The notes beneath the pieces were generated by a model. It made no database searches and was not told the DNA's origin. It saw only the letters and a program-made list of their open reading frames with translations. This document shows, piece by piece, positions 14,529 to 28,259 of a DNA stretch of 43,816 bases; the stretch's first letter is position 1; each line of letters starts with the position of its first letter. Source of the stretch: a virus; IMG/VR virus record IMGVR_UViG_3300042563_000822, positions 1 to 43,816 of that record. One strand, written 5' to 3'. A program made the translations under genes and the position numbers.

Positions 14529-14798
14529 TTACGATTTGTCAACTATTGCCCTAGCACCATCAAGCGAAATCTTAGAACAGTCCTTAAGCAAGGTTATATA
14601 GTTCTCATCAGTTTGTAAGTCTGTAAAGACAAGAACTTGGTCTTTTGCTTCCGGAAACTTAAGATACAAGACTCCTTGTATGCCATAATGCTCCAAGTTA
14701 GCAAGAAAAGTTCTTGCATGGGCTTCCATCTGTTCTTCGGCGTGAGCCGACAGAACTGAGGCTTTGCCTCGGCGGTTTTTTTTGGGCTTATCGCTCAC
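14529..14798 (-). CDS. Hypothetical 89-aa protein
   Basis: Basic N-terminus (MSDKPKKNRRGKASVL) followed by a small mixed alpha/beta domain with AEEQMEAHARTFLANLEHYG and KDQVLVFTDLQTDENYITLL. The start is GTG within a 4-base GTGA overlap with the upstream gene, so translation is coupled. As one of the two genes closest upstream of the head genes it is a position-based candidate for terminase small subunit, but it lacks an obvious DNA-binding HTH. Confidence 0.6.
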   Translation of the reverse strand: MSDKPKKNRRGKASVLSAHAEEQMEAHARTFLANLEHYGIQGVLYLKFPEAKDQVLVFTDLQTDENYITLLKDCSKISLDGARAIVDKS

Positions 14799-15238
14799 AC
14801 TATACGGCCTCGTTCGTCGGTTTTTACATTAGAATACCACGAACCCTCCTTGTTGACAGCCTCTATAATGGTTCCAGTTCGCAAAAACTTTGAATTAATA
14901 ACCTTTACTCGCTCCATTCGGCCTCGTATCTCGCAATCAACGAACTTTGTATTCTGAAACTTTCGACGAACAACAGCAGGACACTTCTCGATAGCCTTCG
15001 CCTTGACAGTTTCCTCGATAACAGGCTCGTCAGGGTGCTCGTCGTTGTCAACCTTAGCCCCCTTGGTAGCCAGCAGACCCACCAAACCCTTCATTGTCCA
15101 CTTGATAGCACCGGAATGACCCTTCGTCGTCGAGTCCTGCACCCAATCCTCACCCTTCACGAACCGACTCTTTCTTAGTTCAACCAACTCAGGCTTAGTA
15201 AACGGATACTTTTCAATGATTTGCTTCTCTTTGAACAT
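14795..15238 (-). CDS. Hypothetical DNA-binding-like protein, first gene of the virion operon
   Basis: 147 aa from the ATG at 15238 (a TTG four codons upstream is rejected). The N-terminus YPFTKPELVELRKSRFVKGE with IKWTMKGLVGLL looks like a winged-helix or MerR-like reader, and the C-terminal half (FQNTKFVDCEIRGRMERVKV, then a KVINSKFLRTG strand) is beta-rich. As the promoter-proximal gene beside the iteron region it could be a regulator or a divergent terminase small subunit. Neither is proven. Confidence 0.55.
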   Translation of the reverse strand: MFKEKQIIEKYPFTKPELVELRKSRFVKGEDWVQDSTTKGHSGAIKWTMKGLVGLLATKGAKVDNDEHPDEPVIEETVKAKAIEKCPAVVRRKFQNTKFVDCEIRGRMERVKVINSKFLRTGTIIEAVNKEGSWYSNVKTDERGRIV

Positions 15239-15920
15239 AGGTTTACCCAATATACATACCCTACTTCATATGTCTAATTAAAAATACACCCCACCAGTTT
15301 TCTGGTGGCCCCCTGTATCTATATACTATGTCTTTATCTCTATTACTATATGTCGCCAGTTTTCTGGCGGGGGTCCGCCAGTTTTCTAGCACCCCCCCAC
15401 CAGTTTTCCGGCGGGGGGTATAGGCATAAGTCAAGTGTTTTTGTATAAAAAGTCTATAGGGGGTAACCAATCTGCATCTGGCTGGCACCTGGACTAGTGG
15501 AATCCCCCCGACCCCACCTTTTTCTCTACTAGTGAACATAATAGCACTAGTAGTAGCGGCCGATTCTAGACCATTTGACAGTTCGCAAGGGTGTTCCCAT
15601 TACCCGGAATTGAAACCCCTCTAGAATCGCCAGCCAGACCCCTAGGATTGCAAGTCTCGGAATTGGTGGGGTAGGGAAATTGGACTAGATGGGGGCGGAT
15701 TGAAAATAGTCAAAATAGGGCTTGAACCGAACCCCAGTAGGGCTAGTGTCATGGACGTAGGGTGTTCATTGACAGTCAAACGAAAGCAGGCAGGGCTAAC
15801 GCCCCTGCGGTTCTCAGTAGTCCAAGGCCAATCGGCCAGCGGATGAACAGCGAACAGGGTCGGGGCAGAAACCTCGAACCGCTTGCTCTAGTGCGACAAT
15901 TAGAACCCCTCGAAAACGCC
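15239..15920. promoter_or_regulatory. Control region between the leftward virion operon and rightward small genes
   Basis: 682 bp without a supported gene, between divergent starts at 15238 (-) and 15921 (+). It holds the 22-bp iteron set at 15291-15413, C/G-tract spacers, and nine CTAG tetranucleotides between 15493 and 15892. No confident -35/-10 pair was found. A 92-codon leftward frame across 15261-15539 has repetitive, Arg-rich sequence derived from the iterons and is not taken as a gene. The region should contain the main leftward late promoter. Confidence 0.6.
15291..15413. repeat. Iteron/palindrome set, intergenic copy
   Basis: Three imperfect palindromes start at 15354, 15376 and 15398, exactly 22 bp apart: CGCCAGTTTTCTGGCG, CGCCAGTTTTCTAGCA and CACCAGTTTTCCGGCG, with 6-bp G/C spacers (GGGGTC, CCCCCC). 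A fourth, CACCAGTTTTCTGGTG, sits apart at 15292-15307. On the minus strand the core reads CGCCAGAAAACTGGCG and is followed by ACATATAGTA, the same core, period and flank as inside the replication initiator gene at 26308-26398. Likely binding sites for the phage initiator or a regulator. Confidence 0.88.
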
Positions 15921-16265
15921 ATGTCGGAAACCCCCAAGAAGAAGGCTCAGACCCTTCAGGAGTGGATGAAGTCCCGCTCCAAACAGGTGAACCCGGAGGT
16001 TGCCAAGTTGGTCATGGCAATCGAAACCGAGCAGGATAAGGACGCTGGTAAGCAGTCCATCCGTGGTAGGTTGGTAGTCGGTGGCAAGGTGGTTTGCATC
16101 ACGCTGGTTGGTTTCGAACAGTTGGAAATGCGTGGTCAATGGGTTCCGACCATGACCTACATTCGTGGTTCCGAAACCACGGAGCAGTTGGTCGAGGAAG
16201 TCGAATCCAAGGGTGCGGAGTTGCCCCCGGAGCAGAAGTCCGTGGAGAAGGACGAAACCGCCTAA
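15921..16265 (+). CDS. Hypothetical 114-aa protein
   Basis: Starts MSETPKKKAQTLQEWMKSRS; an in-frame extension upstream to 15762 has atypical composition and is not used. The central part RGRLVVGGKVVCITLVGFEQLEM is a beta-hairpin-rich core, followed by a Glu-rich tail (VEEVESKGAELPPEQKSVEKDE). First of two short rightward genes that face the leftward accessory block. Followed by paired GC hairpins. Possibly an early gene from the control region. Not recognised. Confidence 0.6.
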   Translation: MSETPKKKAQTLQEWMKSRSKQVNPEVAKLVMAIETEQDKDAGKQSIRGRLVVGGKVVCITLVGFEQLEMRGQWVPTMTYIRGSETTEQLVEEVESKGAELPPEQKSVEKDETA

Positions 16266-16278
16266 AGGTTTGGACTAG

Positions 16279-16324
16279 CCCCCCTAAGGGGTTCGACTAA
16301 CCCCCGTAAGGGGTTCCCCTTTTC
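16279..16324 (+). terminator. Two tandem GC hairpins after the 114-aa gene
   Basis: Two near-copies of GACTAxCCCCCxTAAGGGG follow each other (stems at 16281-16291 and 16302-16313, CCCC/GGGG with short TAA loops), then TTCCCCTTTT. They could act as a weak intrinsic terminator or as an RNA structure upstream of the next ATG at 16328, whose start they almost touch. The duplication itself is clear; the function is inferred. Confidence 0.5.
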
Positions 16325-16327
16325 CCC

Positions 16328-16633
16328 ATGAAAATAATAAAAGTCCCTCAAATCCTAGGTTATACCAAAGTCGTAAAAAAGAAGATAAGCCTGAAGGTAA
16401 CGAAAGACGTGAAAATCCCGACCAATGGACTTACGTGGGAGCAGCGAATCCTAAGAGAGCAGGAAGACAGAGAAAGGCGTGAACAGAAGATAATTGCCTA
16501 TCTCATGGCCGACAGAGCAGCCTCAAAAGTCCGGGAAAAAGTAGCAAAAGCAAGAAAGGTAAAGCATGAGTTCCAAGTTGGATGCGTCCGGGATAAGTTC
16601 ACCTTCTATAAGACTTTGGTCTGGTATACCTAA
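16328..16633 (+). CDS. Hypothetical basic 101-aa protein
   Basis: Basic and mostly helical. MKIIKVPQILGYTKVVKKK, then a charged helix with EQRILREQEDRERREQKI and a VREKVAKARKVKHE segment. A short aromatic tail ends the protein. Followed 6 bp later by a strong intrinsic terminator, so it is the last gene of this rightward unit. It may bind nucleic acid, judging by charge only. Confidence 0.55.
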   Translation: MKIIKVPQILGYTKVVKKKISLKVTKDVKIPTNGLTWEQRILREQEDRERREQKIIAYLMADRAASKVREKVAKARKVKHEFQVGCVRDKFTFYKTLVWYT

Positions 16634-16639
16634 AGCACG

Positions 16640-16663
16640 GCCCCCAGAAATGGGGGCTTTTTT
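16640..16663 (+). terminator. Rho-independent terminator
   Basis: GCCCCCA stem, GAAA loop, TGGGGGC stem, then six T. Textbook intrinsic terminator just after the stop of the 101-aa gene. Confidence 0.92.
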
Positions 16664-16740
16664 GTGCCTGTTTTGATCGAGCGCCAGGTGCTTCCTGCTG
16701 CCCGGCGGTTCCCACCATCCCACCCTACTTGATTTCTACT

Positions 16741-16900
16741 AGTTATAGTGTTATAGCATTACGACTATTAATCGAGTTATAGTATTACGAGAGTTCGAGT
16801 AGTTATAGTGTTATAGTATTACGAGTAGTTATAGTGTTATAGTATTACGTTATTCCCACTAGTTATAGTGTTATAGCGTTACTACTGTTAGAGCATTACG
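16741..16900. repeat. AT-rich tandem repeat array
   Basis: Four near-identical 23-bp units start at 16741, 16801, 16827 and 16861, each beginning AGTTATAGTGTTATAG and ending (C/T)(A/G)TTAC plus G or T. Two shorter degenerate copies lie at 16775-16789 and 16886-16900. Each unit contains an internal TTATAG-TG-TTATAG doublet. The two middle units are 26 bp apart. No gene is present; the array looks like a multi-site protein-binding region or an AT-rich unwinding element. From 16664 to 16740 and 16901 to 17127 nothing else was recognised. Confidence 0.85.
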
Positions 16901-17127
16901 TCATTCCGGCGATTGTTCTTGACGTGTTATTACTTGTCCCCCCTAATAACCCCCAGTCCTTCAAATTACCCTGTTATAGCCTTATTAGTGTTAGTTGTTT
17001 GACTATTAGTGAGTCTAGTCTAGTCTTTCCACCTGTAATAGTAGGGGTTGGGATAACACCTGGCGGTGGGCTGTGGGAACTGCAGATTTTGATAGTTACT
17101 AGAAGTCAAGTGGTCAAATGAGGGCAC

Positions 17128-17154
17128 AAAAAAGGAGAGCCGGTTGGACTCTCC
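17128..17154 (-). terminator. Intrinsic terminator for the leftward accessory block
   Basis: On the minus strand GGAGAG and CTCTCC form a stem around a 9-nt loop, followed by six T. It would end transcripts coming from the gene at 17286-17687 and the structured RNA behind it. Confidence 0.82.
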
Positions 17155-17162
17155 TGTTACTA

Positions 17163-17291
17163 GAATTACTGGATTAATACCAGAAGTTGAAATTCTCGAT
17201 TTGCTTAGTCCACCAATAAACCTGTTTGTTGAACAGGTTGTATTCTAATACGTGATGGTCGAGTTGAACTCGATAGTCAATAGGACTATTG
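17163..17291 (-). ncRNA. Structured 3' region: series of four hairpins
   Basis: Between the 133-aa gene and the terminator the sequence folds as a chain of stems. AGAATT/AATTCT enclosing CTGG/CCAG (17163-17196), AACCTGTT/AACAGGTT (17219-17239), TCGAGT/ACTCGA with a TGA loop (17259-17273), and CAATAG/CTATTG with a GA turn (17278-17291, which includes the stop codon of the gene). Four stems in 130 nt is more than expected by chance. It could be a stability element or a small RNA released by processing. Confidence 0.45.
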
Positions 17292-17687
17292 TGCTGCATT
17301 GAATGGGTCAATTTTGGCTTTCTTGAGTTTCAAGTAACGCTGTTTTCCGTAGGCCAGCAAGCGTTCTTTGTTCCGGAAGTAATACTCCTTACTGTAGGCT
17401 TTGGTGGAACGCTTGAATTTATTGATTTTAGGTTCTTTGCCAATATACGCTTTTATAGTAGCGTCTGATTTAGGGCTTTCGTGAAATGCTTTGATTCGTG
17501 CTTCCTTGGCTTTCTTGGCTTCCTGCTGTTTTAACCATTCCTCGGTCGAAATCATTTTGTGCATCACGACCTTTTTGACATGCACCTGAATCTTGGGAGT
17601 ATTTCGTTTCTTTGAATTACTCAAAGCCAGGTTTGACATGGCTTTAATCAATTCTGTTGGCACTTGAATGTGCTTGGGAGTGGACAT
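17286..17687 (-). CDS. Hypothetical basic 133-aa protein
   Basis: Lys/Arg-rich. The N-terminal part contains KKRNTPKIQVHVKKVVMHK and the middle a helical EEWLKQQEAKKAKEARIKAF. The C-terminal YSKEYYFRNKERLLAYGKQR resembles the tyrosine/basic helix found next to HNH and other phage nucleic-acid binding domains, but no HNH residues follow. It is 60 bp downstream of the amidoligase with a strong hairpin between, so it may be read through from it. It could be a substrate or accessory factor of the amidoligase system, which is speculation from position. Confidence 0.55.
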   Translation of the reverse strand: MSTPKHIQVPTELIKAMSNLALSNSKKRNTPKIQVHVKKVVMHKMISTEEWLKQQEAKKAKEARIKAFHESPKSDATIKAYIGKEPKINKFKRSTKAYSKEYYFRNKERLLAYGKQRYLKLKKAKIDPFNAAQ

Positions 17688-17706
17688 GGTAGTGATAGTG
17701 GGGTTA

Positions 17707-17734
17707 GGGTAGCCACCGGAATTGATGGCTACCC
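17707..17734 (-). other. Hairpin between amidoligase and the 133-aa gene
   Basis: Perfect 9-bp stem GGGTAGCCA/TGGCTACCC with a 10-nt loop. There is no T tract, so it is more likely an RNA processing or stability element, or an attenuator, than a full terminator. Confidence 0.6.
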
Positions 17735-17747
17735 ATAGCCCGATTAA

Positions 17748-19247
17748 TTACTCGACTCCACCCTCCAGTTGATTCAGAGCAATCGCATAACTGTCGAAGT
17801 TAGGCAACGCTTGAATTCCATTGAGGGTATAAGTCGACTGGAACTTGAGAATACGCTTAAACACGTAATGCTTCAAGTCTACCGAAGCATCCGATTGCAT
17901 GAAATCCTCAAGGGTAGCAACGCTATTGTAAGGAGAAGCCAGGTATTGCATGAAGCGGCACCAATACTTCAACTTGTAGTAATTCAACGTAGGCATGCCC
18001 AAGCGGATTTCGATCGTTTGATGTTCGCTGTAGCATTGAGTATTTACAGCAGTATAACGATTACCTTGATGCTCTCGACCAATGCCACAGTAGTGATTAT
18101 GGGAACGGTTGTAAGACACGGCTCGATGTGCCCAAGCATTAATAGCATCACGCACTTTAGTAGCAGTTCGCATAGCCGACTGTTGCGAGCGATGACGCAT
18201 ATCTAGATGCACATGATTGCCACAAGTATTATTAATACCAGCACCATTGGCAACCATCTTTTTCAACACAGCCTCCATGTTCGTCCAATCACTCTTGGAC
18301 GAGCCGTTGATGAACCACGTCAACTCTTGGAAATGAGCCAATTGTTCATCGCTACCATTAGGACGAATCGAGCCGTCACCCTTAAAGTAGAGCCAAGGGT
18401 AAACAGGGAATTGACTTTCTTCCCAATTAGTAATGCTACTACCGGTATCAGCAATAAACTCCAACTCGATACCTAGGCATTCACCATTAGGTCGAAGTCG
18501 ATTAGCCATAGACAACTGAGTTGAGTTGAGACTGTTGACCCAGCGATGCGGACGAACACTTGCAATATTAGAAATAGTGCGAGAGAAGCGTTCCTGCAAA
18601 GTTGCGGGCTGTGCATTTTCACGAGCATTGGTTTTCACCATTTCACGGCGACGATGGCAACGATTAAACCATCGGCCAACAGTAACACAATCGTTATACT
18701 TATCCACGATACGCTTGTAAAAAACGGCATCGTTCTTATCTACCTTTACACCAATATCTACTTCACTACGACCCTCAGTATCGTTCCAATCAGGGACTTT
18801 GCCTTCAATTAGAACATTAATAATACTATGGCGGTCATAAGTAGCAGTATTCACTACCCACTTGTGAAACCGGCCGATGAAGGAAAGCAGGGAAGTGTCG
18901 GACTGGTCGCCCAACTTGATATCTGCTAACGATAGTGCGGTCTGAACACGCATATTAAGACCATTAATATCAATCTCCAACTTGTAGTGCGGGTCGTAAT
19001 TCTGGTGTCCACGGATAATAGTGGCTAGCAGTTTCGGATTGTTTCGAGCCTTCAGAGAAAGCGAGTTCCAAGCGAGAATGGGGTCTGACTTGTAAACACC
19101 GTTTTCATCTTCCAGTCGGATTGCTTTGGTTTTGTGAACTAGCAGACCATAAGCCTCCAACTGTTTCTGCCGGAGGATGGGCTGCTTGGAAAGGATGAGA
19201 ACATCCTTTTCCGGGGTTTGAGGGTTAACTGAACTATCGGGGGCCAT
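17748..19247 (-). CDS. Amidoligase-family (glutamine synthetase-like COOH-NH2 ligase) enzyme
   Basis: 499 aa. The C-terminal half carries the order of motifs expected of the Amidoligase_2 family: GIELEF (259-264, metal-binding acidic pair), KGDGSI (289-294), QELT (307-310), GNHVHLDMR (343-351) and TIEIRLG (411-417), followed by a helix with YYKLKYWCRFM. Such enzymes use ATP to join a carboxylate to an amine. The N-terminal 240 residues are unassigned and may choose the substrate. A class II amidotransferase lies immediately upstream and could supply ammonia or remodel the glutamine. The ATG at 19247 sits behind an A/C-rich leader whose hairpin is shared with that of the amidotransferase. Confidence 0.78.
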   Translation of the reverse strand: MAPDSSVNPQTPEKDVLILSKQPILRQKQLEAYGLLVHKTKAIRLEDENGVYKSDPILAWNSLSLKARNNPKLLATIIRGHQNYDPHYKLEIDINGLNMRVQTALSLADIKLGDQSDTSLLSFIGRFHKWVVNTATYDRHSIINVLIEGKVPDWNDTEGRSEVDIGVKVDKNDAVFYKRIVDKYNDCVTVGRWFNRCHRRREMVKTNARENAQPATLQERFSRTISNIASVRPHRWVNSLNSTQLSMANRLRPNGECLGIELEFIADTGSSITNWEESQFPVYPWLYFKGDGSIRPNGSDEQLAHFQELTWFINGSSKSDWTNMEAVLKKMVANGAGINNTCGNHVHLDMRHRSQQSAMRTATKVRDAINAWAHRAVSYNRSHNHYCGIGREHQGNRYTAVNTQCYSEHQTIEIRLGMPTLNYYKLKYWCRFMQYLASPYNSVATLEDFMQSDASVDLKHYVFKRILKFQSTYTLNGIQALPNFDSYAIALNQLEGGVE

Positions 19248-19310
19248 GTTTTTTTGGTTTTTGGGTTTTACTCCTTTTCGCTGGGTTCTACGAAGTGTAG
19301 AGTTATCAGG
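19248..19310 (-). promoter_or_regulatory. Amidoligase leader with conserved hairpin
   Basis: On the minus strand a 5-bp hairpin TCTAC-ACTTC-GTAGA (19287-19301) is followed by ACCC, a CGAAAAGGA segment, AAAACCCAAAAA and the start codon. The GATase leader at 20514-20575 has the same layout, TCAAC-ACTTT-GTTGA. The third pair is T-A here and A-T there, so pairing is kept while the base changes. CGAAAAGGAG lies 24 nt upstream of the ATG, too far to be a normal SD. Confidence 0.68.
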
Positions 19311-19329
19311 ATTAGGAGGAAAGTTTTAC

Positions 19330-19349
19330 ATCCATATTTCTATGGATGC
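19330..19349 (-). terminator. GAAA-tetraloop hairpin downstream of the GATase gene
   Basis: Minus strand: CATCCATA-GAAA-TATGGATG, followed by TAAAACTTTCC. Eight base pairs and a GNRA loop, 73 nt past the GATase stop; the T tract is weak, so termination is probable but not certain. Confidence 0.55.
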
Positions 19350-19421
19350 CACAAAACGTCTTTTAGTTCTGTTTTTGAACTAGTGGTAAGACTGAATTAG
19401 TGGATTTCCGTCGATCAACTA

Positions 19422-20513
19422 TTAGTAGCCTATGTCGGAATCCTTCCAGGGCTTGATTTGCTTGCGTCCGTTCTTTTTCGAGCGTTCAGAGGATTCCTTG
19501 CGATAGTTGTCTAACTCCTTTTGCTCGCCTTCGGTTAGAACATCTTCCACAGTAGAATCAGGAACGCTATTGCTAAAAGAACTTTTAGGAATACTAGGAT
19601 ATGGACTGGTATAAGTAGAACGATTATTCCGGGCATTCCAATCACCAGAACCAAAACCAGCAACACCAGCACTACCAAGACTCCGATAAATGCCAGCGGT
19701 GCTAGAATACGACATTTTATTGTCAAACTTGGGAAACTCGATTGACTGGACTTCCCCATTTAGTTGAAATACATGCTTAGTGTAATCAGCAAGCATCATA
19801 GGAGTCGACACTTTAGGTTCCTTGATGGAATTGAAGTCGCACAACATTTTAGTCAATTCGTTGCAATGCGAGGAGTCCGTGCAAATCACGTAACTATCGA
19901 GGTCAACGATATAGGACATATACAAGGGAGCCTTGTTATCACGCAACACGAACATTTGACCTAATTGATCGAATCCAATAACTGCTGCGTAACCGGAAAT
20001 ACCATCTTTAAACGATTGCTCTCCATTTAAGTGAAGGAAGCAATTCAAGAGATGCTCGGAGTCACAGGTCGTATGAAGCGGTAGTTTAACACCACTCCAT
20101 TCAACGATACCATTATGAGCAATCGTCCACTTGCCGTGCTCGTTGAAGCCGGTGAAAGGATGAGTATTCTCAATTGACTTGCCACAGGTAGCGGTGCGAC
20201 CATGAGCAATAAGGGAACCGACGATTTTGCCTTTTGCAGGCTTTTCACCATTCGAGTCGAAGTCGATTCCTTCGAGTAGTTTGGTTCGGATAGAACCTTT
20301 GATTAGGTCAAAAGACTCTTTTAGAGTCCCCATACCAGCAACCGAGTCCGCCGAAAGATAGCGTTCGGTGAACTGACCATTTTGGTGTTTGATAGAATAG
20401 CCGAAACCATCCTTTTGGGAGGCTCCTAGCAGTTCTGCTGACCGCTTGACTAGGGCAGAAGCCTGTTTGCTACTTTTAGTAGAAACACGACTAATGGCGA
20501 TTAACTTGCACAT
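19422..20513 (-). CDS. Class II glutamine amidotransferase (Ntn-type)
   Basis: 363 aa. The start was set at the ATG directly before Cys, because class II amidotransferases use an N-terminal Cys nucleophile exposed by Met removal (MCKLIAISR). Further family marks are AHGRTAT (103-109), NTHPF (116-120), AHNGIV (132-137), CDSEHLL (150-156) and GYAAVIGF (174-181). It hydrolyses glutamine and passes ammonia to a partner. No synthetase domain is fused, and the Ser-rich C-terminus (about 265-363) is unassigned. The amidoligase gene just downstream is the obvious partner. An in-frame upstream start at 20561 is rejected because it would bury the nucleophile. Confidence 0.87.
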   Translation of the reverse strand: MCKLIAISRVSTKSSKQASALVKRSAELLGASQKDGFGYSIKHQNGQFTERYLSADSVAGMGTLKESFDLIKGSIRTKLLEGIDFDSNGEKPAKGKIVGSLIAHGRTATCGKSIENTHPFTGFNEHGKWTIAHNGIVEWSGVKLPLHTTCDSEHLLNCFLHLNGEQSFKDGISGYAAVIGFDQLGQMFVLRDNKAPLYMSYIVDLDSYVICTDSSHCNELTKMLCDFNSIKEPKVSTPMMLADYTKHVFQLNGEVQSIEFPKFDNKMSYSSTAGIYRSLGSAGVAGFGSGDWNARNNRSTYTSPYPSIPKSSFSNSVPDSTVEDVLTEGEQKELDNYRKESSERSKKNGRKQIKPWKDSDIGY

Positions 20514-20575
20514 GTTGTTTTGTTGTTTTTTGGGTTTTCGTCCTTTCGTCGGGTTCAACAAAGTGTTGAGTTGCC
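20514..20575 (-). promoter_or_regulatory. GATase leader with conserved hairpin and CAA-rich start region
   Basis: Minus strand: TCAAC-ACTTT-GTTGA hairpin (20555-20569), then ACCC, CGAAAGGA and AAAACCCAAAAAAC, ending in ACAACAAAACAAC before the ATG. It aligns with the amidoligase leader nearly base for base from AACTC to AAAACCC. No SD. Confidence 0.68.
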
Positions 20576-20604
20576 GAGATTAGACAGAAAGAAGTAAAAG
20601 GGGG

Positions 20605-20628
20605 ACCACCACGATTTCTCGTGGTGGT
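20605..20628 (-). terminator. Strong GAAA-tetraloop hairpin after the 94-aa gene
   Basis: Minus strand: ACCACCACGA-GAAA-TCGTGGTGGT, then CCCCCTTTTAC. A perfect 10-bp stem just past the stop of the 94-aa gene, acting as terminator or attenuator before the GATase leader. Confidence 0.7.
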
Positions 20629-20634
20629 TGAACG

Positions 20635-20919
20635 TTAGCCGTTCGAGGACTTCTTGCTGTTGTAGGAGGTCAGGGACTTGGTGATTTGCTTGACGGACTT
20701 GAGGAGTTTGAAATACTTGGACTTCCAGGACTTCGCTTCCTTCTCCAATTCCTTCTTTTCCGAGCAGAACTTGTGGAACTGCTCCATCTGGGACTTCTTC
20801 AAGTCGTAGTTTTCGATGTTCTTGAAGAACAACCGGATTTCGGGGTTCGTGGAAACCAACGACTTGAGGTTTTCCTTGTGGAAGTCTTTTTCAGACTTTT
20901 GCTTGAACACTTGGCACAT
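20635..20919 (-). CDS. Small charged helical protein (94 aa)
   Basis: MCQVFKQKSEKDFHKENLKS and onward. Lys/Glu-rich, predicted long helices (KKELEKEAKSWKSKYFKLL), with a Ser/Lys/Asn tail. It begins with Met-Cys like the GATase but has none of the Ntn motifs. The start follows GAAACAACAAAAAAC, an SD-less leader like that of the GATase. It could be a partner or substrate of the amidoligase/GATase pair, an idea based only on adjacency and leader style. Confidence 0.6.
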   Translation of the reverse strand: MCQVFKQKSEKDFHKENLKSLVSTNPEIRLFFKNIENYDLKKSQMEQFHKFCSEKKELEKEAKSWKSKYFKLLKSVKQITKSLTSYNSKKSSNG

Positions 20920-20934
20920 GTTTTTTGTTGTTTC

Positions 20935-21530
20935 GGTATCAGCCCTAGTTATGCAACTACTTTAACAAAAGTAGAACTGCTAGCATTTCGATCACTTGTA
21001 GTGATTGATTTACTGCTTTGAATGATCGACATAGTTGGACTGATAGAAGAACTATAGCATATTAAATGCTTTAGGTAAAGACTATATTTGACATCTTTAA
21101 TAAAAATAGTAGTGATACATGAATTCTAGGATTACTAGTAATACTTTTGTCAAGCAGAAGTTTAATCAAATTGCTTGAATCCTAGTAATCCATATAACTC
21201 CAGGGTGTAAGGAATCAAGTATTGACCGGCAAATGTTAGTAATAGGTTCGATCAAAAATGGAAAATGTTAAGTTCGCCGGTTGACACAACTGTTGGTTAG
21301 TGGAAATGGTAGATTTGCTTGTGTATGCAAATGGTTGAAGCCGACAATTTTGGTAAACCTTCAATTCTACTATTTTGATAAACCTAGGTTTCAAGTATTT
21401 GATGTAACGCCGGCCTGCATCGTCGCTCGGACTTCAGTATTTGCATTTATGCCTGGCTGCCCAGGCCGGCATAGCCACAATTAGTTTAAGCGTTCCAACT
21501 TTAGTTTTTGAAATCAAAATCCAAAACTAC
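20935..21530 (-). ncRNA. Candidate large structured noncoding RNA next to the tRNA cluster
   Basis: About 600 bases with no supported ORF, transcribed with the tRNAs on the minus strand. Read leftward the stems include GCCGGCCTG/CAGGCCGGC (around 21462-21471 and 21410-21418), ATTTGC/GCAAAT, ACCGGC/GCCGGT, a 10-bp GGATTACTAG/CTAGTAATCC pair (about 21182-21191 and 21128-21137) that encloses TCAAGCA/TGCTTGA, AGCAT/ATGCT, ATCACT/AGTGAT with an ACA loop, and CTACTTT/AAAGTAG with a TGTT loop. Nested long-range stems on this scale beside phage tRNAs resemble the habit of GOLLD and ROOL RNAs. No family match was tested. Confidence 0.6.
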
Positions 21531-21537
21531 GACAATA

Positions 21538-21609
21538 TGGGAGCAATGGGATTCGAACCCATAGCCTACGACTTAAAAGGTCGCTACTCTACCATTGAGT
21601 TATACTCCC
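21538..21609 (-). tRNA. tRNA-Lys(TTT)
   Basis: Full cloverleaf. Acceptor GGGAGTA/TGCTCCC, D stem ACTC/GAGT, anticodon loop CTTTTAA, T arm ATGGG-TTCGAAT-CCCAT, discriminator A. CCA is not encoded. Confidence 0.93.
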
Positions 21610-21616
21610 TAAAGGG

Positions 21617-21687
21617 TGGAGCGTAGGAGAGTCGAACTCCTATTATCCCGATGCAAACGGGATTTCCTGCCATTGAAAGAACGCCCC
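21617..21687 (-). tRNA. tRNA-Ala(TGC)
   Basis: Acceptor GGGGCGT/ACGCTCC (one G-T pair), anticodon stem TCCCG/CGGGA with loop TTTGCAT, T arm AGGAG-TTCGACT-CTCCT, discriminator A. Two unusual points are C at position 9 and a weak D stem. It lacks the GGGGCTA-type start usual for tRNA-Ala, but has G3-T70, the alanine identity pair. Confidence 0.82.
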
Positions 21688-21694
21688 TAAATGG

Positions 21695-21766
21695 AGGCCC
21701 GAACAGGACTTGAACCTGCAACATCCTCATTACAAATGAGGTGTTCTACCATTGAACTATCGGGCC
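21695..21766 (-). tRNA. tRNA-Thr(TGT)
   Basis: Acceptor GGCCCGA/TCGGGCC perfect, D stem GTTC/GAAC, anticodon stem CCTCA/TGAGG with loop TTTGTAA, T arm GCAGG-TTCAAGT-CCTGT, discriminator T. Confidence 0.92.
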
Positions 21767-21768
21767 GG

Positions 21769-21841
21769 TAGGCGTGAGGGGATTCGAACCCCCGACTTAA
21801 GCCTTATAAAGACTCCACTCTAACCGCTGAGTTACACGCCT
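21769..21841 (-). tRNA. tRNA-Ile(TAT)
   Basis: Acceptor AGGCGTG/CACGCCT perfect, D stem ACTC/GAGT, anticodon loop TTTATAA (anticodon TAT, reads AUA), T arm GGGGG-TTCGAAT-CCCCT, discriminator A. A genuine UAU anticodon is uncommon in bacteria, which usually read AUA with a modified CAU tRNA. Confidence 0.88.
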
Positions 21842-21855
21842 GTTGAATGTAAAAG

Positions 21856-21926
21856 AACCCGCACTAGGAGTCGAACCTAGACTTGAAGGACCAAAACCTT
21901 TCGTGCTACCATTACACTATGCGGAT
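21856..21926 (-). tRNA. tRNA-Gln(TTG)
   Basis: Acceptor ATCCGCA/TGCGGGT (one T-G pair), D stem GTGT/GCAC, anticodon stem AAAGG/CCTTC (one A-C mismatch) with loop TTTTGGT, T arm CTAGG-TTCGACT-CCTAG, discriminator T. Its first ten bases are also the last codons and stop of the 74-aa gene upstream (stop TAG at 21917-21919). Confidence 0.9.
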
Positions 21927-22141
21927 AAAAGTTGCTTCAGCCGCTCGACCTCGGCCTTGAGGCGGGTCATATCCTTCTTGGCTAATTCAGCGGCGTATAG
22001 ATATGCAGTCAATGGGTCTGGCTGTGACTTGAGTTCATCAACCTCCGCCTTGAGTTTTGCATACTCTTCCGCCATCCTGTCTGCCTGTTGAGTGTAGACC
22101 AGATTAAGCACGTCCTTCTTATCCAAGTATTGTTTACTCAC
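21917..22141 (-). CDS. Small coiled-coil protein (74 aa)
   Basis: Helical throughout with heptad-like Leu/Ala spacing (YAKLKAEVDELK, then TRLKAEVERLKQLL). It starts with GTG in a 4-base GTGA overlap with the upstream gene. The stop codon lies inside the tRNA-Gln 5' end, so processing of the tRNA would cut the mRNA near its own stop. Function unknown. Confidence 0.65.
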   Translation of the reverse strand: MSKQYLDKKDVLNLVYTQQADRMAEEYAKLKAEVDELKSQPDPLTAYLYAAELAKKDMTRLKAEVERLKQLLSA

Positions 22142-22647
22142 TTGGCTTGCTTCTTCTTATATTCGAACACGACTTCCTGTCCGTTGATATAGACAACTTC
22201 GAATTCTTCCCACAACTCAAACTCGTTGTTGGTATGAAGTTCGAACATCATTTCCGGATACATTGCAGACATTTCTTTAAGCCAAGCGATAGGAGGCTTT
22301 GCTCGGGTCTTGAATTCATAATACAGGTTCTTATCATCGACCTGCAAGGAAGTCACGTCGGTAGCGTCATAGATGCAACCCCAAGTCGCTAGGGTATAGG
22401 CATAGATGTTTTCGAAACCGCAATACTTCATATTCTCGTCAATAGACATGTTGTCTAATTTATCGTGGTTATCAACCAAGATAGTAGGGACTGGGAGGTG
22501 ATTGGAGAATGTCAAAGGAGAGTTGTCTTCGTTGTCCTCTAGGTCAATGGACAGGTCAAATAAACTTTCCAAGGCCTCCTTGTCGTCCTTGATGATTGAG
22601 ATACTGAGTTCGTTGTAAGCCCACTCGATAGAATTTTTATTGCTCAT
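22138..22647 (-). CDS. Hypothetical acidic 169-aa protein
   Basis: Start set at the ATG of MSNKNSIEWAYNELSISI; the longer frame begins in the unrelated leader. The leader ends CCAACCAACCAAAAACAAC before ATG. The protein is acidic with LSIDLEDNEDNSPLTFSNH, a central aromatic region (YCGFENIYAYTLATWGCIYD) and a C-terminal strand pair with VVYINGQEVVFEYKKK. It resembles small single-domain early phage proteins, but no family was recognised. Confidence 0.6.
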   Translation of the reverse strand: MSNKNSIEWAYNELSISIIKDDKEALESLFDLSIDLEDNEDNSPLTFSNHLPVPTILVDNHDKLDNMSIDENMKYCGFENIYAYTLATWGCIYDATDVTSLQVDDKNLYYEFKTRAKPPIAWLKEMSAMYPEMMFELHTNNEFELWEEFEVVYINGQEVVFEYKKKQAK

Positions 22648-22675
22648 GTTGTTTTTGGTTGGTTGGTTAGTTGTT

Positions 22676-22906
22676 TTAGTAGGAGTTATACGAAATCCAT
22701 TCATCTCGCTCGGCTGGAGTCATTCCGGAAAGACGAGGGTCATTGGTAGGTTCGTTAAATAAAGCCGTGCTGACAATCATATTTAATGCACTTTTCTTAG
22801 ATGCTTCGTTAGGGATTTCTCCATTGAAATACTTGTTAAGTATCTCCTTATGGACTTCGCATTCGTAATCAAAGTTTTGATTTTCTGGCAGTTCTTCGTT
22901 GCTCAT
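22676..22906 (-). CDS. Hypothetical 76-aa protein
   Basis: MSNEELPENQNFDYECEVHK followed by NKYFNGEIPNEASKKSAL and a C-terminal GMTPAERDEWISYNSY. Small, acidic, with two predicted helices. Preceded by a structured 180-nt gap and followed 28 bp later by the next gene. Not recognised. Confidence 0.58.
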   Translation of the reverse strand: MSNEELPENQNFDYECEVHKEILNKYFNGEIPNEASKKSALNMIVSTALFNEPTNDPRLSGMTPAERDEWISYNSY

Positions 22907-23087
22907 AGTTGTTGTATGTTTGGTAGAAGTTTTACTGAATAGGGCTGGCTTTGTGCCACTTTCGTCCTTGACGCATATGCATCTAGGAACCCCTCATCAG
23001 TCAGCCGTGGTTTCAAAGCACGGCCCGTTATGAAATAGTAATAATGCCCGCCACCTCCGAAATAGCGAGCACTAAAACAAGTTATTT
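22907..23087 (-). promoter_or_regulatory. Structured leader / intergenic region
   Basis: 181 bp without a gene. On the minus strand GCCGTG/CACGGC forms a perfect 6-bp hairpin (around 23009-23029). It is followed by CTGATGAG, then a near-palindrome GATGCAT/ATGCGTC flanked by CCT/AGG, then GGACGAAAG and TGGC-ACAAA-GCCA. This ordered set looks like a folded RNA (leader, riboswitch or degraded ribozyme) in front of the 76-aa gene. No known family could be assigned. Confidence 0.4.
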
Positions 23088-23519
23088 TTAGGCTGTAATG
23101 TAGCGTAGGATATGCTGAAGGACGTGCAAGCGATAGGTAAGACCGCCCATGTTGACACCATCAAGCGGAGTCACGCCCTTCATGAGTTCGTTGACTTCAT
23201 CGGGCTTCTTGCTACGCAGTTCCTTAACCTTGAGATAAGCCTTACGTTCCTTTTCATACGCCATCACAAGTTTGCTTCGGTCGGTAATAAACAGGCCGGG
23301 CGAGGTTTCCTTGTAAAAGCGGTCCTTGTCAATCTTGGGTTCCTTGCAGAATACGATATAGGAATACATCGAGGCCGCACTATTGGTAGCCTTGACGAAT
23401 TCTACTTCGTCCTTGAACAGCGTGGCGAAGCGGAAGGCCTCACGATTATTAAGACCCTTCACTTTGCCAAAAAGGAAAGCGGGGGACGACTTGATTTCTT
23501 CGGTGATTTTGGTGCTCAT
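23088..23519 (-). CDS. Hypothetical 143-aa protein
   Basis: Start at the ATG of MSTKITEEIKSSPAFLFGK; the longer frame is rejected because it overlaps the upstream gene with poor composition. Mixed alpha/beta with Lys-rich patches, GLNNREAFRFATLFKDEVEFV and LVMAYEKERKAYLKVKELRSK. The leader carries AAAAACAAAAACAATAAC before the start. No family recognised. Confidence 0.58.
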   Translation of the reverse strand: MSTKITEEIKSSPAFLFGKVKGLNNREAFRFATLFKDEVEFVKATNSAASMYSYIVFCKEPKIDKDRFYKETSPGLFITDRSKLVMAYEKERKAYLKVKELRSKKPDEVNELMKGVTPLDGVNMGGLTYRLHVLQHILRYITA

Positions 23520-23520
23520 A

Positions 23521-23946
23521 TTAGTTATTGTTTTTGTTTTTGGGGGAATTCTTCTTCTTAGTTTTGCCCGACTTGGGCTTCTTGTCAAGCGGATTGAAGG
23601 CGGTGACGTTGCCCTTTCGCTTGTTGAGGAGTTTGTTCAGTTCGATGAAGGAAGCCTTTTCGAATTCGTCATCAATGATGCCTTCGTCTCGGAGCATCTC
23701 GCAACCTTGGTCGAACATTCGCTTGAATTCGTTGATGTCCTTGGACAGCGAGAAAACCGTGATGATGCCGTATTGAGGAAGATTGCAGTTCAACTCGCCA
23801 GCGTGAACAAGTTGAAGGATTTTCCAAGAGTTGTAGCGAGATACGCCACCGGAGTTAATCAACTGAAGGATACCAATAGGCTCCTTTTCGGTGAGAATGT
23901 TGGAAGTGAAAATCACTTCGGGCGGTTGATTGTGTTGGTTGTTCAT
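23521..23946 (-). CDS. Hypothetical 141-aa protein
   Basis: MNNQHNQPPEVIFTSNILT, then an HTH-like SGGVSRYNSWKILQLVHAGEL and a helical region with DEFEKASFIELNKLLNKRKGN, and a Lys/Asn-rich tail ending in NKNNN. One base separates it from the next start region. It may bind DNA (weak HTH impression only). Confidence 0.55.
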   Translation of the reverse strand: MNNQHNQPPEVIFTSNILTEKEPIGILQLINSGGVSRYNSWKILQLVHAGELNCNLPQYGIITVFSLSKDINEFKRMFDQGCEMLRDEGIIDDEFEKASFIELNKLLNKRKGNVTAFNPLDKKPKSGKTKKKNSPKNKNNN

Positions 23947-23953
23947 AAGAAAA

Positions 23954-24253
23954 TTATCGGTTTTCGTGCTTGAAGAAGTTGTCCATTATGACTTCGACAT
24001 GATGCTTCTGCTTGCCGATGAGTTCAAGAGCCGTCATGTGACCCTTGCTTGCATACTGATACTCAACCTTCCAATGGTCAAGTTCTAATTTGGTCTTTTC
24101 CGCTTCCTTGCTCATCTTGTCGAGGAGCGTCTGGGCTGAGTCCCAAGTCGTGTTCATGGCTTTGAGTTGCGTCTGCAAGTCCGAAATCTGGAGACGCAGT
24201 TCTGCGTTCTCCTTGGTCAAGTTCACTAGTGCGTTTAGGTGCTGTTGGCTCAT
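23954..24253 (-). CDS. Coiled-coil protein (99 aa)
   Basis: MSQQHLNALVNLTKENAELR with a heptad coiled coil through about residue 70 (LRLQISDLQTQLKAMN, AEKTKLELDHWKVEY), then KGHMTALELIGKQKHHVEVI. The first 176 bases overlap the 3' end of the upstream HTH gene in another frame. The coding signal here (heptads, typical ATG AGC start) is better than that of the neighbour's tail. Function unknown. Confidence 0.6.
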   Translation of the reverse strand: MSQQHLNALVNLTKENAELRLQISDLQTQLKAMNTTWDSAQTLLDKMSKEAEKTKLELDHWKVEYQYASKGHMTALELIGKQKHHVEVIMDNFFKHENR

Positions 24254-24713
24254 TTTGGTTATTGGGAATGTCTATTACCTTACCATGATTTTCTTTTCCG
24301 TCAACAGCAAATGCGGAATTGAGTTCGTCCTGCGTAATGCGTAGGCGAGTCTCGATACGGACTGTCGGAGCGTCGGCCAAGTCTCTGACCTTATCTATGG
24401 CGATAGCCAGAGCCATCGGCAATTGCCCCACAGGGATGTTTTCCACGTTGTCCAATAGTCGGGTGGCCCCCTTCTGGACAAACTCGCCCAGAAGCCCAGC
24501 CACTTCACGCTTCCAAGAGCCAAGTTCCAATTTGCCGTCAGACTCCATTTGTTGTCTAATGGAAACAACAGTTGACTTACGTAGAGATACTAGTTTTGCA
24601 GTTTCCTCGCAACTCTTTCCTTCTATGATTAGTTTTTCCGCAATCTTTTTAACAGGACTAGGAACATTCTTAACCAAGTCGTTGAGGTGTTCTTTATTTG
24701 CTTGATAATCCAT
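24078..24713 (-). CDS. HTH DNA-binding protein (211 aa), possible terminase-small-like or regulator
   Basis: Residues 20-60 read KKIAEKLIIEGKSCEETAKLVSLRKSTVVSIRQQ (shown in two parts: KKIAEKLIIEGKSCEETAK and LVSLRKSTVVSIRQQ), an HTH. The middle SWKREVAGLLGEFVQKG and LPMALAIAIDKVRDLADAPT are typical of a phage protein family seen near replication genes and also of some small terminases. The last 58 residues overlap the 99-aa gene and have out-of-frame-like composition. It starts 23 bp from the divergent RusA gene, so it may control that promoter. Role uncertain. Confidence 0.6.
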   Translation of the reverse strand: MDYQANKEHLNDLVKNVPSPVKKIAEKLIIEGKSCEETAKLVSLRKSTVVSIRQQMESDGKLELGSWKREVAGLLGEFVQKGATRLLDNVENIPVGQLPMALAIAIDKVRDLADAPTVRIETRLRITQDELNSAFAVDGKENHGKVIDIPNNQNEPTAPKRTSELDQGERRTASPDFGLADATQSHEHDLGLSPDAPRQDEQGSGKDQIRT

Positions 24714-24736
24714 TGGAATGTGTTTAGTTGTAAACC

Positions 24737-25168
24737 ATGGACGAAATAAGAATGGAAGTCAACATCATTCCGACGAAGGCAACGCACCAGTCCTCCCTCA
24801 GAATAATGAGAAAGGGAAACGGACAAATGTTCGTGGGCAAGTTCGCAAAGTCGGCAGTTAAGTCTTGGATACAAGAGTTCAACTGGAAGATTAAGGAACA
24901 TAAGCCGGCAAAGCCCCTGGATGGTCCACTTGAATTGCAACTTCATTTTAGATTTCCATTTAATAAAACAACCCCCAAGAAATACCTTAATAGGGACGAG
25001 TGGAAGACTACTAGACCTGACTTAGATAATATGGAAAAGATGATACTAGACTCGCTTACATCAGAAGGGTTCATAGTGGACGACTCTCTTATTTGCTTGA
25101 AAACGACCTCAAAGAAACACTCGAGCAATCACGGGATAAATATCGTTATACGCCAGATTGCCCCTTGA
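24737..25168 (+). CDS. rusA: RusA-family Holliday junction resolvase
   Basis: 143 aa. The family signature RPDLDNMEKMILDSL (residues 93-107) and FIVDDSLIC (112-120) supplies the catalytic aspartates D95, D97 and D115/D116. A Lys/Pro stretch before it (FPFNKTTPKKYL) is also typical. RusA dimers cut four-way junctions in recombination or before packaging. First gene of the rightward replication block. It starts only 23 bp from the divergent HTH gene. Confidence 0.9.
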   Translation: MDEIRMEVNIIPTKATHQSSLRIMRKGNGQMFVGKFAKSAVKSWIQEFNWKIKEHKPAKPLDGPLELQLHFRFPFNKTTPKKYLNRDEWKTTRPDLDNMEKMILDSLTSEGFIVDDSLICLKTTSKKHSSNHGINIVIRQIAP

Positions 25169-25200
25169 CTCGGGGGCTGGCTTGGTGATACTGCGGGTCT

Positions 25201-26031
25201 ATGCAACCCGAACCCATGAGCACACCTACATTCATTAACGACATTTCCACCGCTACCTATGACGGCTGGGACGCAATTAACTATTCTTCCCTCAAGAAGT
25301 TTATGGTCAGCCCCAAGCACTATCAATCTTGGTTTCTGAACAAGGACAACGAGGAAACAAAGGATGCGTTCCGCTTTGGTAGTGCCGTGCATATGCTTTG
25401 CCTTCAGCCCGAGCATTTTAATCATCGCTGGTCTATTGCTCCAGAAGTTGACCGCCGAACCAAGGCTGGCAAGGAAACTTGGGCTATGTTCCTCGAAGAA
25501 GTTAATGGTAGCGATAGTTACTTGTCTATGAAGGAATATGAAGTCTGCCTCAACATCGCCAATTCCTTAAAGCAAAACCAGTTCTGGAATCTCATGAACG
25601 ACAAAAACGATGAAATTTATCGTGAATTTGGTATTCTGTCGGAGCATGCTGGTTGCAAGGTCAAGGGTCGAGTTGACTTCTACAACAAGACCAAGAACGT
25701 CATCGTTGACGTAAAGACCATCTCGCAGACTCCTACTGTTAAGAACGTCCTAGACCAAATCTACTCGCTTAAGTATTATGTCCAGACCTACTTCTATACC
25801 AAGTTGGTTGAGAGCGTGTTTAAGCCAGAAAAGATTCCTACGTTCTATTTTGTGTTCGTCGAGAAGGCTCTTCCTTATTCCGTTGCTTGGTTTGAGATTT
25901 CTCCGGAGTTCGGTGACTACGAGAACACCAAGAAGAAGGTCGAGGAAGCCTTGTGCCGTTTTGAGAATGCGAAAAAGGTCAATATTTGGGCTGGACTCGA
26001 GAACGAAAATAAGCCATTGTTCCTTGAATGA
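25201..26031 (+). CDS. PD-(D/E)XK exonuclease (DUF3799/RecE-like)
   Basis: 276 aa. It has INYSSLKKFMVSPKHYQSWF near the N-terminus, FGSAVHML (59-66), GRVDFYNKTKNVIVDVKT (156-173; D159, D170, K172 as the PD-(D/E)XK core) and YYVQTYFYTKL (192-202; the QxxxY motif of RecB-like nucleases). This is the λ-exonuclease/RecE-like set that makes 3' overhangs for annealing. The ERF annealing protein three genes on is its expected partner. An ATG at 25216 (MSTPTFIND) is an alternative start. ATGA overlap with the initiator gene. Confidence 0.85.
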   Translation: MQPEPMSTPTFINDISTATYDGWDAINYSSLKKFMVSPKHYQSWFLNKDNEETKDAFRFGSAVHMLCLQPEHFNHRWSIAPEVDRRTKAGKETWAMFLEEVNGSDSYLSMKEYEVCLNIANSLKQNQFWNLMNDKNDEIYREFGILSEHAGCKVKGRVDFYNKTKNVIVDVKTISQTPTVKNVLDQIYSLKYYVQTYFYTKLVESVFKPEKIPTFYFVFVEKALPYSVAWFEISPEFGDYENTKKKVEEALCRFENAKKVNIWAGLENENKPLFLE

Positions 26032-26693
26032 GTGATAATTCACCAATGTTTGCAGGGGTTTTCATACCCCGTGAAGTTTTGCTGGACGCAGACATCTCTG
26101 CGTCTGGCAAGATTATCTTCGCCATCATCCAGTCTCTTGACAACGACAAGGGGTGCTTCGCCAGCAACGAATACATCGGCAAGATGCTCGGGCTGTCGGA
26201 CTCCTCGGTTCGTGCTTCAATCGGAGACTTGTTGAAGAAGAATTACATTACCCGAGTGGTCACAGAAACTGGTGTTCGCACCATTCGCACCTGCACTACT
26301 TCTTCTTTGGCGACCCCCCGCCAGATTTCTAGCGGACCCCCGCCAGAAAACAAGCGACCCCCCGCCGGAAAACTGGCGACATATAGTAGTAAAGATATTA
26401 GTAATGATTTAAAGACAGTCATGCTTCCTTGTTTGCCTCACTCTGAAAACTTCCACAAGGTCTGGGAGGACTGGGTGACATACCGCAAGGAACGCAAGAA
26501 GCCACTAACTCCAACGACCATCAAACTCCAACTAGAATTCCTAACCAACCTAAACGAACATGACGCAACCCAATCAATCATCTCCTCTATCAAGCACGGA
26601 TGGCTTGGTATCTTCGCTCCTAACGGAAATCAACGCACTTCCAGTTTCCAAGCAAAAAAGCAACTCACTTCCGATGACCACAGCCAGTTCTAA
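26028..26693 (+). CDS. Replication initiator (winged-helix, O/DnaD-like) containing iterons
   Basis: 221 aa. Residues 18-80 form a winged helix-turn-helix (SASGKIIFAIIQSLDNDKG, then MLGLSDSSVRASIGDLLKK). A low-complexity linker (about 97-120; PPPENKRPPAGKLATY) is encoded by three 22-bp iterons. The C-terminal domain has FHKVWEDWVTYRKERK and SIISSIKHGWLGIF, as in helicase-loader-contacting domains. The loader gene follows and overlaps. Origin DNA within the initiator gene is known from lambda O. The linker sequence is dictated by the DNA repeats. It overlaps the upstream exonuclease by ATGA. Confidence 0.78.
   Translation: MSDNSPMFAGVFIPREVLLDADISASGKIIFAIIQSLDNDKGCFASNEYIGKMLGLSDSSVRASIGDLLKKNYITRVVTETGVRTIRTCTTSSLATPRQISSGPPPENKRPPAGKLATYSSKDISNDLKTVMLPCLPHSENFHKVWEDWVTYRKERKKPLTPTTIKLQLEFLTNLNEHDATQSIISSIKHGWLGIFAPNGNQRTSSFQAKKQLTSDDHSQF
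26308..26378 (+). repeat. Iteron cluster inside the initiator gene, probable origin
   Basis: Three units start at 26319, 26341 and 26363, exactly 22 bp apart: CGCCAGATTTCTAGCG, CGCCAGAAAACAAGCG and CGCCGGAAAACTGGCG, each followed by an ACCCC-type spacer. A right half-unit (TGGCG) precedes them at 26308-26312. The last unit is followed by ACATATAGTAGTAAAGATA, AT-rich sequence suited to unwinding. The same core, period and flank occur inverted at 15291-15413. Confidence 0.88.
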
Positions 26694-27378
26694 GACGAAT
26701 ATGGCTAAGTGTGAATGCGGTAGCACCCGTATTCCTATGACCGATGGAACTAAAATCGTCTGGCCCGACTGGTTTTGTTTCTTCTGCAAGGACAAGTATG
26801 GCGAGATTAAAGACCCTCGTTATACCCGCCTTGAATGGGCACTAGAACCCATCGGAATGCCTCCGGTGTTCCAAGACACCATCATCGAGAAAGTCCCCTG
26901 CCCCAAGATGCGTGATGTGGCTACAAATTGGAATTCTTGGAATAATCGTTCCCTATTGCTCCACGGAACCAGCCGACTCGGAAAGTCGCGAGCCGCATGG
27001 GAAGTCTCACGAAACTACTGGAAGTCCCAGTATCGAAAGCAAATGTTTATTACTATGCGTAAGTTCGAGCAAAACATAGAGGAGGGTTTCAGTAAGTTTA
27101 ATCATAATCAATTGGTTAGTCATATGGTAAACGTCCCCTTCTTGTATATTGACGACTTGGGCAAAGAAAAGATGACCGCACGTATAGCCTGTGACCTTTT
27201 TGCCGTCATTGACGAGCGAACCATTAACTACCGCCCTACCATAATTACTACCAACTTCAACAGTTCTTCCCTGCTTCAACGCTTCGATGACCAAGAACTT
27301 GGAGCCGCCCTAATCGGTCGCTTCAAGGACTTCTTCGACATTGTTGGGGCGACGAAGAAAGATGAAAATAACTCTTGA
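26674..27378 (+). CDS. DnaC-type helicase loader (AAA+ ATPase)
   Basis: 234 aa from the ATG at 26674; an ATG at 26701 is equally possible, while the longest frame (26560) is a shadow of the upstream gene. An N-terminal zinc-ribbon-like part has CEC and CFFC (C13, C15, C35, C38). Walker A is GTSRLGKS (98-105), Walker B FLYIDD (156-161), sensor 1 TTN (192-194) and a late GRF (215-217). It loads host DnaB at the origin set by the initiator encoded just upstream. No phage helicase is present, so the host helicase is the probable client. Confidence 0.87.
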   Translation: MTTASSKTNMAKCECGSTRIPMTDGTKIVWPDWFCFFCKDKYGEIKDPRYTRLEWALEPIGMPPVFQDTIIEKVPCPKMRDVATNWNSWNNRSLLLHGTSRLGKSRAAWEVSRNYWKSQYRKQMFITMRKFEQNIEEGFSKFNHNQLVSHMVNVPFLYIDDLGKEKMTARIACDLFAVIDERTINYRPTIITTNFNSSSLLQRFDDQELGAALIGRFKDFFDIVGATKKDENNS

Positions 27379-28154: not shown

Positions 28155-28168
28155 CAATCAATGATTTT

Positions 28169-28240
28169 GGTCCCGTAGTTCAACGGATAGAACACCCGCC
28201 TTCTAAGCGGGTTATCTTGGTTCGATTCCAAGCGGGACTA
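28169..28240 (+). tRNA. tRNA-Arg(TCT)
   Basis: Acceptor GGTCCCG/CGGGACT (first pair G-T), D stem GTTC/GAAC, anticodon stem CCCGC/GCGGG with loop CTTCTAA, T arm CTTGG-TTCGATT-CCAAG, discriminator A. Lies alone in the rightward block between ERF and a zinc-ribbon gene. CCA is not encoded. Confidence 0.93.
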
Positions 28241-28259
28241 ATTTCTACCAACAAGTAAC

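Follow-up and report, generated by a model that had tools for sequence, protein, structure and literature searches.

The question raised by this locus is why a phage carries the iterons of its replication initiator gene a second time, in front of its virion genes. The DNA concerned is IMG/VR virus record IMGVR_UViG_3300042563_000822 (43,816 nucleotides, in the following the window), a circular phage contig whose terminal 127 bases are identical at both ends. Part of its initiator gene recurs, inverted, in a noncoding stretch upstream of the late operon, and the two copies are ~11 kb apart.

A repeat search of the window paired positions 15335-15419 with 26313-26397 as an 85-nt inverted match of 76% complementarity, and blastn of the initiator linker DNA against its own genome returned the second copy with E about 1e-13. 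Palindromic 16-mers start at 26319, 26341 and 26363 and again at 15354, 15376 and 15398, in both places at exact 22-bp steps. Thus all six positions given in a preliminary description of this DNA were recovered together with the inverted match. The perfect palindrome CGCCAGAAAACTGGCG occurs only at 15354, while the remaining five cluster cores show 1-2 departures. The sense-side junction CGACATATAGTA(A/G)TA(G/A)AGATA, described before as well, is indeed common to both copies, and CGACATATAGTARTARAGATA follows the iteron cluster in both. Taken by itself, the degenerate core shows no enrichment over the genome (88 matches versus 101 expected at 2 mismatches); the significance of the repeats lies in their clustering and in the long match, not in core frequency. 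Neither a core scan nor blastn detected a third copy elsewhere within the window. The 85-nt match supports a common origin of the gene and intergenic segments and bears out the proposal that the gene segment was copied or that both came from one origin. The inverted copy had also been said to keep the KLATYS frame of the gene's linker. Literally this reading holds, but the frame is closed 4-9 codons downstream in ten of ten relatives. A coding remnant under selection was consequently rejected, the frame being a by-product of DNA identity.

The gene copy comprises the following features:

26028..26693, plus strand: O-like replication initiator, 221 amino acids (PHROG 678, E=1e-21; Pfam HTH_36)
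26319..26334, plus strand: gene iteron 1, CGCCAGATTTCTAGCG
26341..26356, plus strand: gene iteron 2, CGCCAGAAAACAAGCG, whose right arm is disrupted by the coding sequence
26363..26378, plus strand: gene iteron 3, CGCCGGAAAACTGGCG
26380..26420, plus strand: AT-rich flank, putative DNA unwinding element (low stability and codon-level conservation)
26560..27378, plus strand: DnaC-like helicase loader, gene next to the initiator (PHROG 50, E=1e-21)

An AlphaFold2 model of the initiator, of modest quality (predicted local distance difference test, pLDDT, 63), consists of a winged helix (residues ~15-90), a disordered linker (91-134, pLDDT<50) and a helical C-terminal domain (~138-190). Foldseek with this weak model delivered general winged-helix matches only, none at E<=0.001. 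The three iterons are encoded by residues 98-118, and iterons plus AT-rich flank by residues 98-128, inside the disordered linker. Among eight relatives, synonymous-codon identity (identical codons among comparisons where the residue is the same) amounts to 0.909 at residues 98-128 versus a mean of 0.487 elsewhere, the largest value in any other segment being 0.60. Therefore the DNA itself is constrained here. At 26381 the flank holds a 40-bp stretch that ranks fifth in the genome for low stability (rank 14 with 50-bp windows). As in the lambda/Stx (Shiga toxin) origin within gene O, the iterons have an A tract at their centre as well as G tracts and are followed by an AT-rich tract, the whole arrangement lying in the middle part of the initiator gene; in lambda two iterons plus the AT-rich tract suffice for unwinding (PMC7466680). 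A further likeness to lambda is that the initiator adjoins the helicase loader. From this anatomy and the nucleotide-level constraint the gene copy is predicted to be a lambda-type origin, in agreement with the earlier suggestion that one of the copies is the origin. The O-like protein would bind the three 22-bp palindromic iterons, the AT-rich stretch beside them would melt, and the neighbouring DnaC-like loader would bring in the helicase.

Lambda, however, has one such site, whereas the window carries a second copy ~11 kb away. This copy and its surroundings comprise:

11314..12948, minus strand: terminase large subunit (annotated in the window)
14795..15238, minus strand: late operon gene 1 (intergenic element directly upstream of its orthologues)
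15249..15276, minus strand: candidate late promoter TAGACA-16-TATATT, between element and late gene 1
15292..15307, minus strand: lone fourth palindrome CACCAGAAAACTGGTG, separated from the iterons by the AT-rich stretch
15309..15353, minus strand: AT-rich flank, putative unwinding element (least stable 40 bp of the genome)
15354..15369, minus strand: intergenic iteron 3, the perfect palindrome
15376..15391, minus strand: intergenic iteron 2
15398..15413, minus strand: intergenic iteron 1 (numbered in minus-strand order)

Thus the repeats of the gene copy recur at 15292-15413, far from the gene and in noncoding DNA, again together with an AT-rich stretch. Its flank holds the least stable 40-bp stretch of the genome (at 15313; rank 15 with 50-bp windows). 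The fourth palindrome, absent from the earlier list of palindromes, lies 62 bp from the iteron cluster across the AT-rich stretch. The palindromes might be read as RNA hairpins, either as terminators or as leader structures before the late operon, and a terminator-like match is indeed present at 15308-15291 on the minus strand. However, the trailing T run of this match is not kept in relatives, the unit flips its orientation among them, and the same units stand inside initiator coding sequence under synonymous constraint; we find this explanation scarcely credible. As to substitution patterns, which the preliminary description had recommended to compare, the gene copy is under synonymous constraint; the palindromes are not significantly better kept in the noncoding than in the gene copy (4.17 versus 3.93 of 6 arm pairs, p=0.27). 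A DnaA-trio or basal unwinding system was considered and rejected, since [T/A]A[G/A] runs are no longer than in shuffles for most copies. The gene-poor ~2-kb stretch adjoining the intergenic element contains AT-rich repeats of the TATAGTGTTATAGTATTACGAG type with 26/8-bp spacing (16726-16905), to which short blastn matches occur in the relative L001.

To which degree this arrangement is shared was assessed in the window clade (clade I). The relatives with enough sequence were G015, G016, X1 (3300037493_001662), X5 (3300009161_000008), L025, X2 (3300032247_000728), X3 (3300009154_000109), X4 (3300032282_002348), G001, L030, L032, G004 and L035, and the intergenic element was found, on the late-gene side, in all of them. 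It lies upstream of the terminase wherever the terminase is in the contig. Orthologues of late gene 1 are present in every relative with the element that was checked and in most relatives without it. Used as a query against the viral collection, late gene 1 yielded zero matches. In all relatives tested the AT-rich flanks of both copies fall below 0.2% of windows, except for the intergenic flank of X2 (1.3%), and a counterpart of the fourth palindrome stands at 58-62 bp in X2, X3, X4, G001, L032 and G004. The intergenic copy is a whole polar unit of iterons and AT-rich stretch, often with a fourth palindrome, and more than a set of operators. Its polarity occurs in both directions. In the window, G015, G016, X1, X5, X2 and X3 the iterons come first, followed by the AT-rich stretch and the late gene. 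In X4, G001, G004 and L032 the lone palindrome leads, next come the AT-rich stretch and then the iterons, and the late gene follows; here iterons and flank have inverted together as one unit.

These features bear on the idea that the element is an operator only, where the initiator would occupy a site next to the late promoter and repress or activate the virion genes according to replication progress, without any start of replication there. Palindromes near promoters are typical of operators, the element stands directly before the same late gene 1 wherever checked, and a -35/-10 candidate follows just downstream. The latter is kept as T[TC]GAC[AT]-N16 in G015, G016, X1, X2 and X3, and TTGACA occupies the same place in a second clade (clade II, see below); a single match of this kind is not above chance, and the support for the candidate promoter lies in its conservation. 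However, an operator needs no least-stable AT-rich stretch, and this stretch keeps its side of the iterons in all members and inverts with them. Moreover, orientation and distance to the promoter vary, and the flipped group is without a clear promoter at the same spacing. Such whole-unit inversion would suit an origin better than a spacing-dependent operator, and we regard a purely regulatory role as possible, yet doubtful. The previous proposal of a second-origin or autoregulation site for this copy thus stays plausible at the head of the virion operon, but the copy is not a mere group of operators and its orientation is not fixed.

The same layout was found in clade II with other iterons. 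The initiator of G011 is 36% identical to that of the window and its gene iterons are of the unrelated GGAAATNNATTTCC type; so is its intergenic element, which matches its own gene at 77% over 93 bp. A scan with the G011 initiator led to 77 loci, scored only where the late gene was covered. All 11 covered loci with an initiator at least 52% identical to that of G011 carry, immediately ahead of the late gene, a copy of the unit in their own initiator gene (the weakest, L291, at E 8e-4), while a second unit is found there in none of the 8 covered loci with initiators of 40-50% identity. Late gene 1 is orthologous among the window clade, clade II and these 40-50% loci. According to both the terminase tree and the initiator tree, the two clades that carry the element are not sister groups and require two changes. 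Either the element may have been gained twice at one place, or an old element may have been lost repeatedly, with both copies rewritten where it was kept. A functionless, decaying by-product, either a fragment of the initiator gene duplicated through recombination or a mobile palindromic repeat, could in principle be envisioned: the copies are clearly homologous, and short palindromic repeats can spread by copying. However, the element occurs without exception at the same place in two clades, its low-stability flank is retained, its copies change in step (see below), and the window holds no more of them elsewhere, all of which makes a by-product very improbable.

Other relatives lack the second copy. 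In G009, G010, G012, G007, G008, G013 and G014 the gene iterons are present, while blastn and the core motif detected no second copy; wherever the late gene could be located, other sequence fills the stretch before it. Among fifteen additional phages whose O-like initiators are more distant, none contains a second iteron copy; matches in G037, G035 and G046 were rejected as AT-rich look-alikes. Some clades thus have the second site as an addition, and the replication system does not require it. Relatives of this kind had been named beforehand as refuting a role of the second cluster, yet they refute only an essential role across the whole group. Inspection by eye revealed that tRNA-like sequences often stand before the late gene (L295, L315, L316, L324, L327 and L329; G009, G012 and G013).

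The sequences of the two sites change in step. The two copies within a phage are more similar to each other than copies compared between phages, with values of 0.905 versus 0.802 in clade I (permutation p=3e-5) and 0.920 versus 0.839 in clade II (p=6e-4); with distinct representatives only, p is 0.003 and 0.0015, respectively. This test of the junction segments was made after one on a longer alignment and should be read accordingly. Single changes point in the same direction. A change from CTGG to CTAG in the last iteron, silent in the gene, separates X5 from its near-twin X1 in both copies. CACCATATAAGACTA is limited to X1, X5 and L025 and stands in both copies where both are known. CAGATAG replaces CATATAG in both copies of L278, while L273 and L275 carry the change in the gene only. 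In our judgement the matched change is real, while its size is uncertain. It could result from gene conversion or from selection for one changing binding specificity, and either would imply a working link between the two sites.

A known phage offers a precedent. In SPP1, which infects Bacillus subtilis, oriL lies within gene 38 and oriR in a noncoding stretch of the late region, ~12-13 kb apart; both contain direct repeats and an AT-rich unwinding element and are bound by gp38 (G38P), which at oriR has been proposed to stall forks and thereby trigger concatemer synthesis (PMC6316719, PMC3485210). The window likewise combines an origin in the initiator gene with a second noncoding element of repeats and AT-rich stretch. 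Since it shares this layout, with a lambda-like initiator, we infer binding of the initiator to both copies and regard the second as an oriR-like initiator target, probably an alternative or later origin beside the late promoter. We assign this reading a probability of about 0.62. The same initiator would then bind a second target at 15.29-15.42 kb, at the virion-operon promoter; the site might melt and fire as alternative or later origin, and its occupancy would affect both the late promoter and the forks arriving from the gene origin. The position allows firing, fork blocking and late-promoter control alike, and what ties the element to late transcription is its position only. One might further speculate that the initiator drives or licenses late transcription from the second element. 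The arrangement would then have arisen at least twice or been kept through iteron replacement, and either gene conversion or selection for a single, changing DNA-binding specificity would keep the gene and promoter copies matched. We put this forward tentatively. As a separate observation, positions 29567-30052 encode a 161-amino-acid protein with a C-terminal sigma-70 region 4-like helix-turn-helix, a candidate late transcription regulator.

The comparison with SPP1 also brings in the recombination genes of the window:

24737..25168, plus strand: RusA Holliday junction resolvase (Pfam RusA, E=1.5e-18)
25201..26031, plus strand: exonuclease VIII-like nuclease (PHROG 412, E=2e-43)
27420..28154, plus strand: Erf single-strand annealing protein (PHROG 2324, E=2e-30; Pfam ERF)

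RusA, exonuclease and Erf might serve a theta-to-sigma switch of the SPP1 type, but they also occur in phages that lack the second site. Together with the layout of oriL and oriR and the similar distance (~11 kb), this gene set would match a site acting mainly as a replication barrier, at which the bound initiator stalls the fork from the gene origin, so that replication passes over to concatemer synthesis dependent on recombination, in line with the proposal for oriR of SPP1. However, the recombination genes are kept in phages without the site. Besides, the orientation of the element flips, whereas polar barriers are usually fixed, and the SPP1 stall is itself a proposal. We consider a role mainly as a barrier to be unlikely.

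Several points speak against an oriR-like second origin. Guanine-cytosine (GC) skew does not single out the second site: the cumulative skew, suggested before as an origin mark, turned out to be confounded, since most phages that lack the element show the same inflection where the late genes start. Complete relatives of the same initiator family lack the second site (G009, G010 and G012, all circular contigs), and relatives without it keep exonuclease and Erf, as well as RusA except in G012. The segments of the similarity test were picked and aligned by hand once they had been inspected, and the sequences lack phylogenetic independence. The earlier test, on a longer machine alignment, gave p=0.006, largely from G011; subclade A reached p=0.017, while subclade B gave no signal. 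Finally, the likeness to SPP1 is one of layout, judged from published descriptions.

The window also differs from SPP1 in several aspects. Its second element directly heads the late operon and carries palindromic 22-bp iterons, in many cases together with a fourth palindrome across the AT-rich stretch. The orientation of this element differs between relatives, and its sequence varies in step with that of the gene copy. Plasmid R6K (beta origin in pir) and the phage/plasmid P4 (ori and crr) also have one initiator with two or more separated clusters of binding sites, but their initiators differ from that of the window. To our knowledge, the distant sites of R6K and P4 are not placed at a virion-gene promoter, and we know one-initiator two-origin phages mainly from SPP1. 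Compared to an SPP1-type dual origin, the novelty would lie in the placement at the late promoter, the flippable orientation and the paired change in two clades. Two uncultured clades with one layout but their own iteron sequences allow one to follow, as in a natural experiment, the joint change of an initiator and its two separate targets, and to ask whether the timing of late gene expression depends on origin binding. The paired sites furthermore yield directly testable initiator-iteron pairs of differing specificity. Taken as a whole, the observation of the preliminary description is confirmed and its interpretation partly supported.

Besides these elements, the window shows further features. 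A genome scan for the host gave a single weak match to a Clostridia metagenome-assembled genome and was uninformative. An amidoligase-like protein (17748-19247) adjoins a class II glutamine amidotransferase-like protein (19422-20561), a pair that suggests peptide or cell-wall modification. Five tRNA genes (Lys, Ala, Thr, Ile and Gln) are clustered at 21538-21926, with tRNA-Arg located apart at 28168-28241. On the minus strand, an open frame of 2668 codons extends over 32333-40339 of this 43.8-kb phage.

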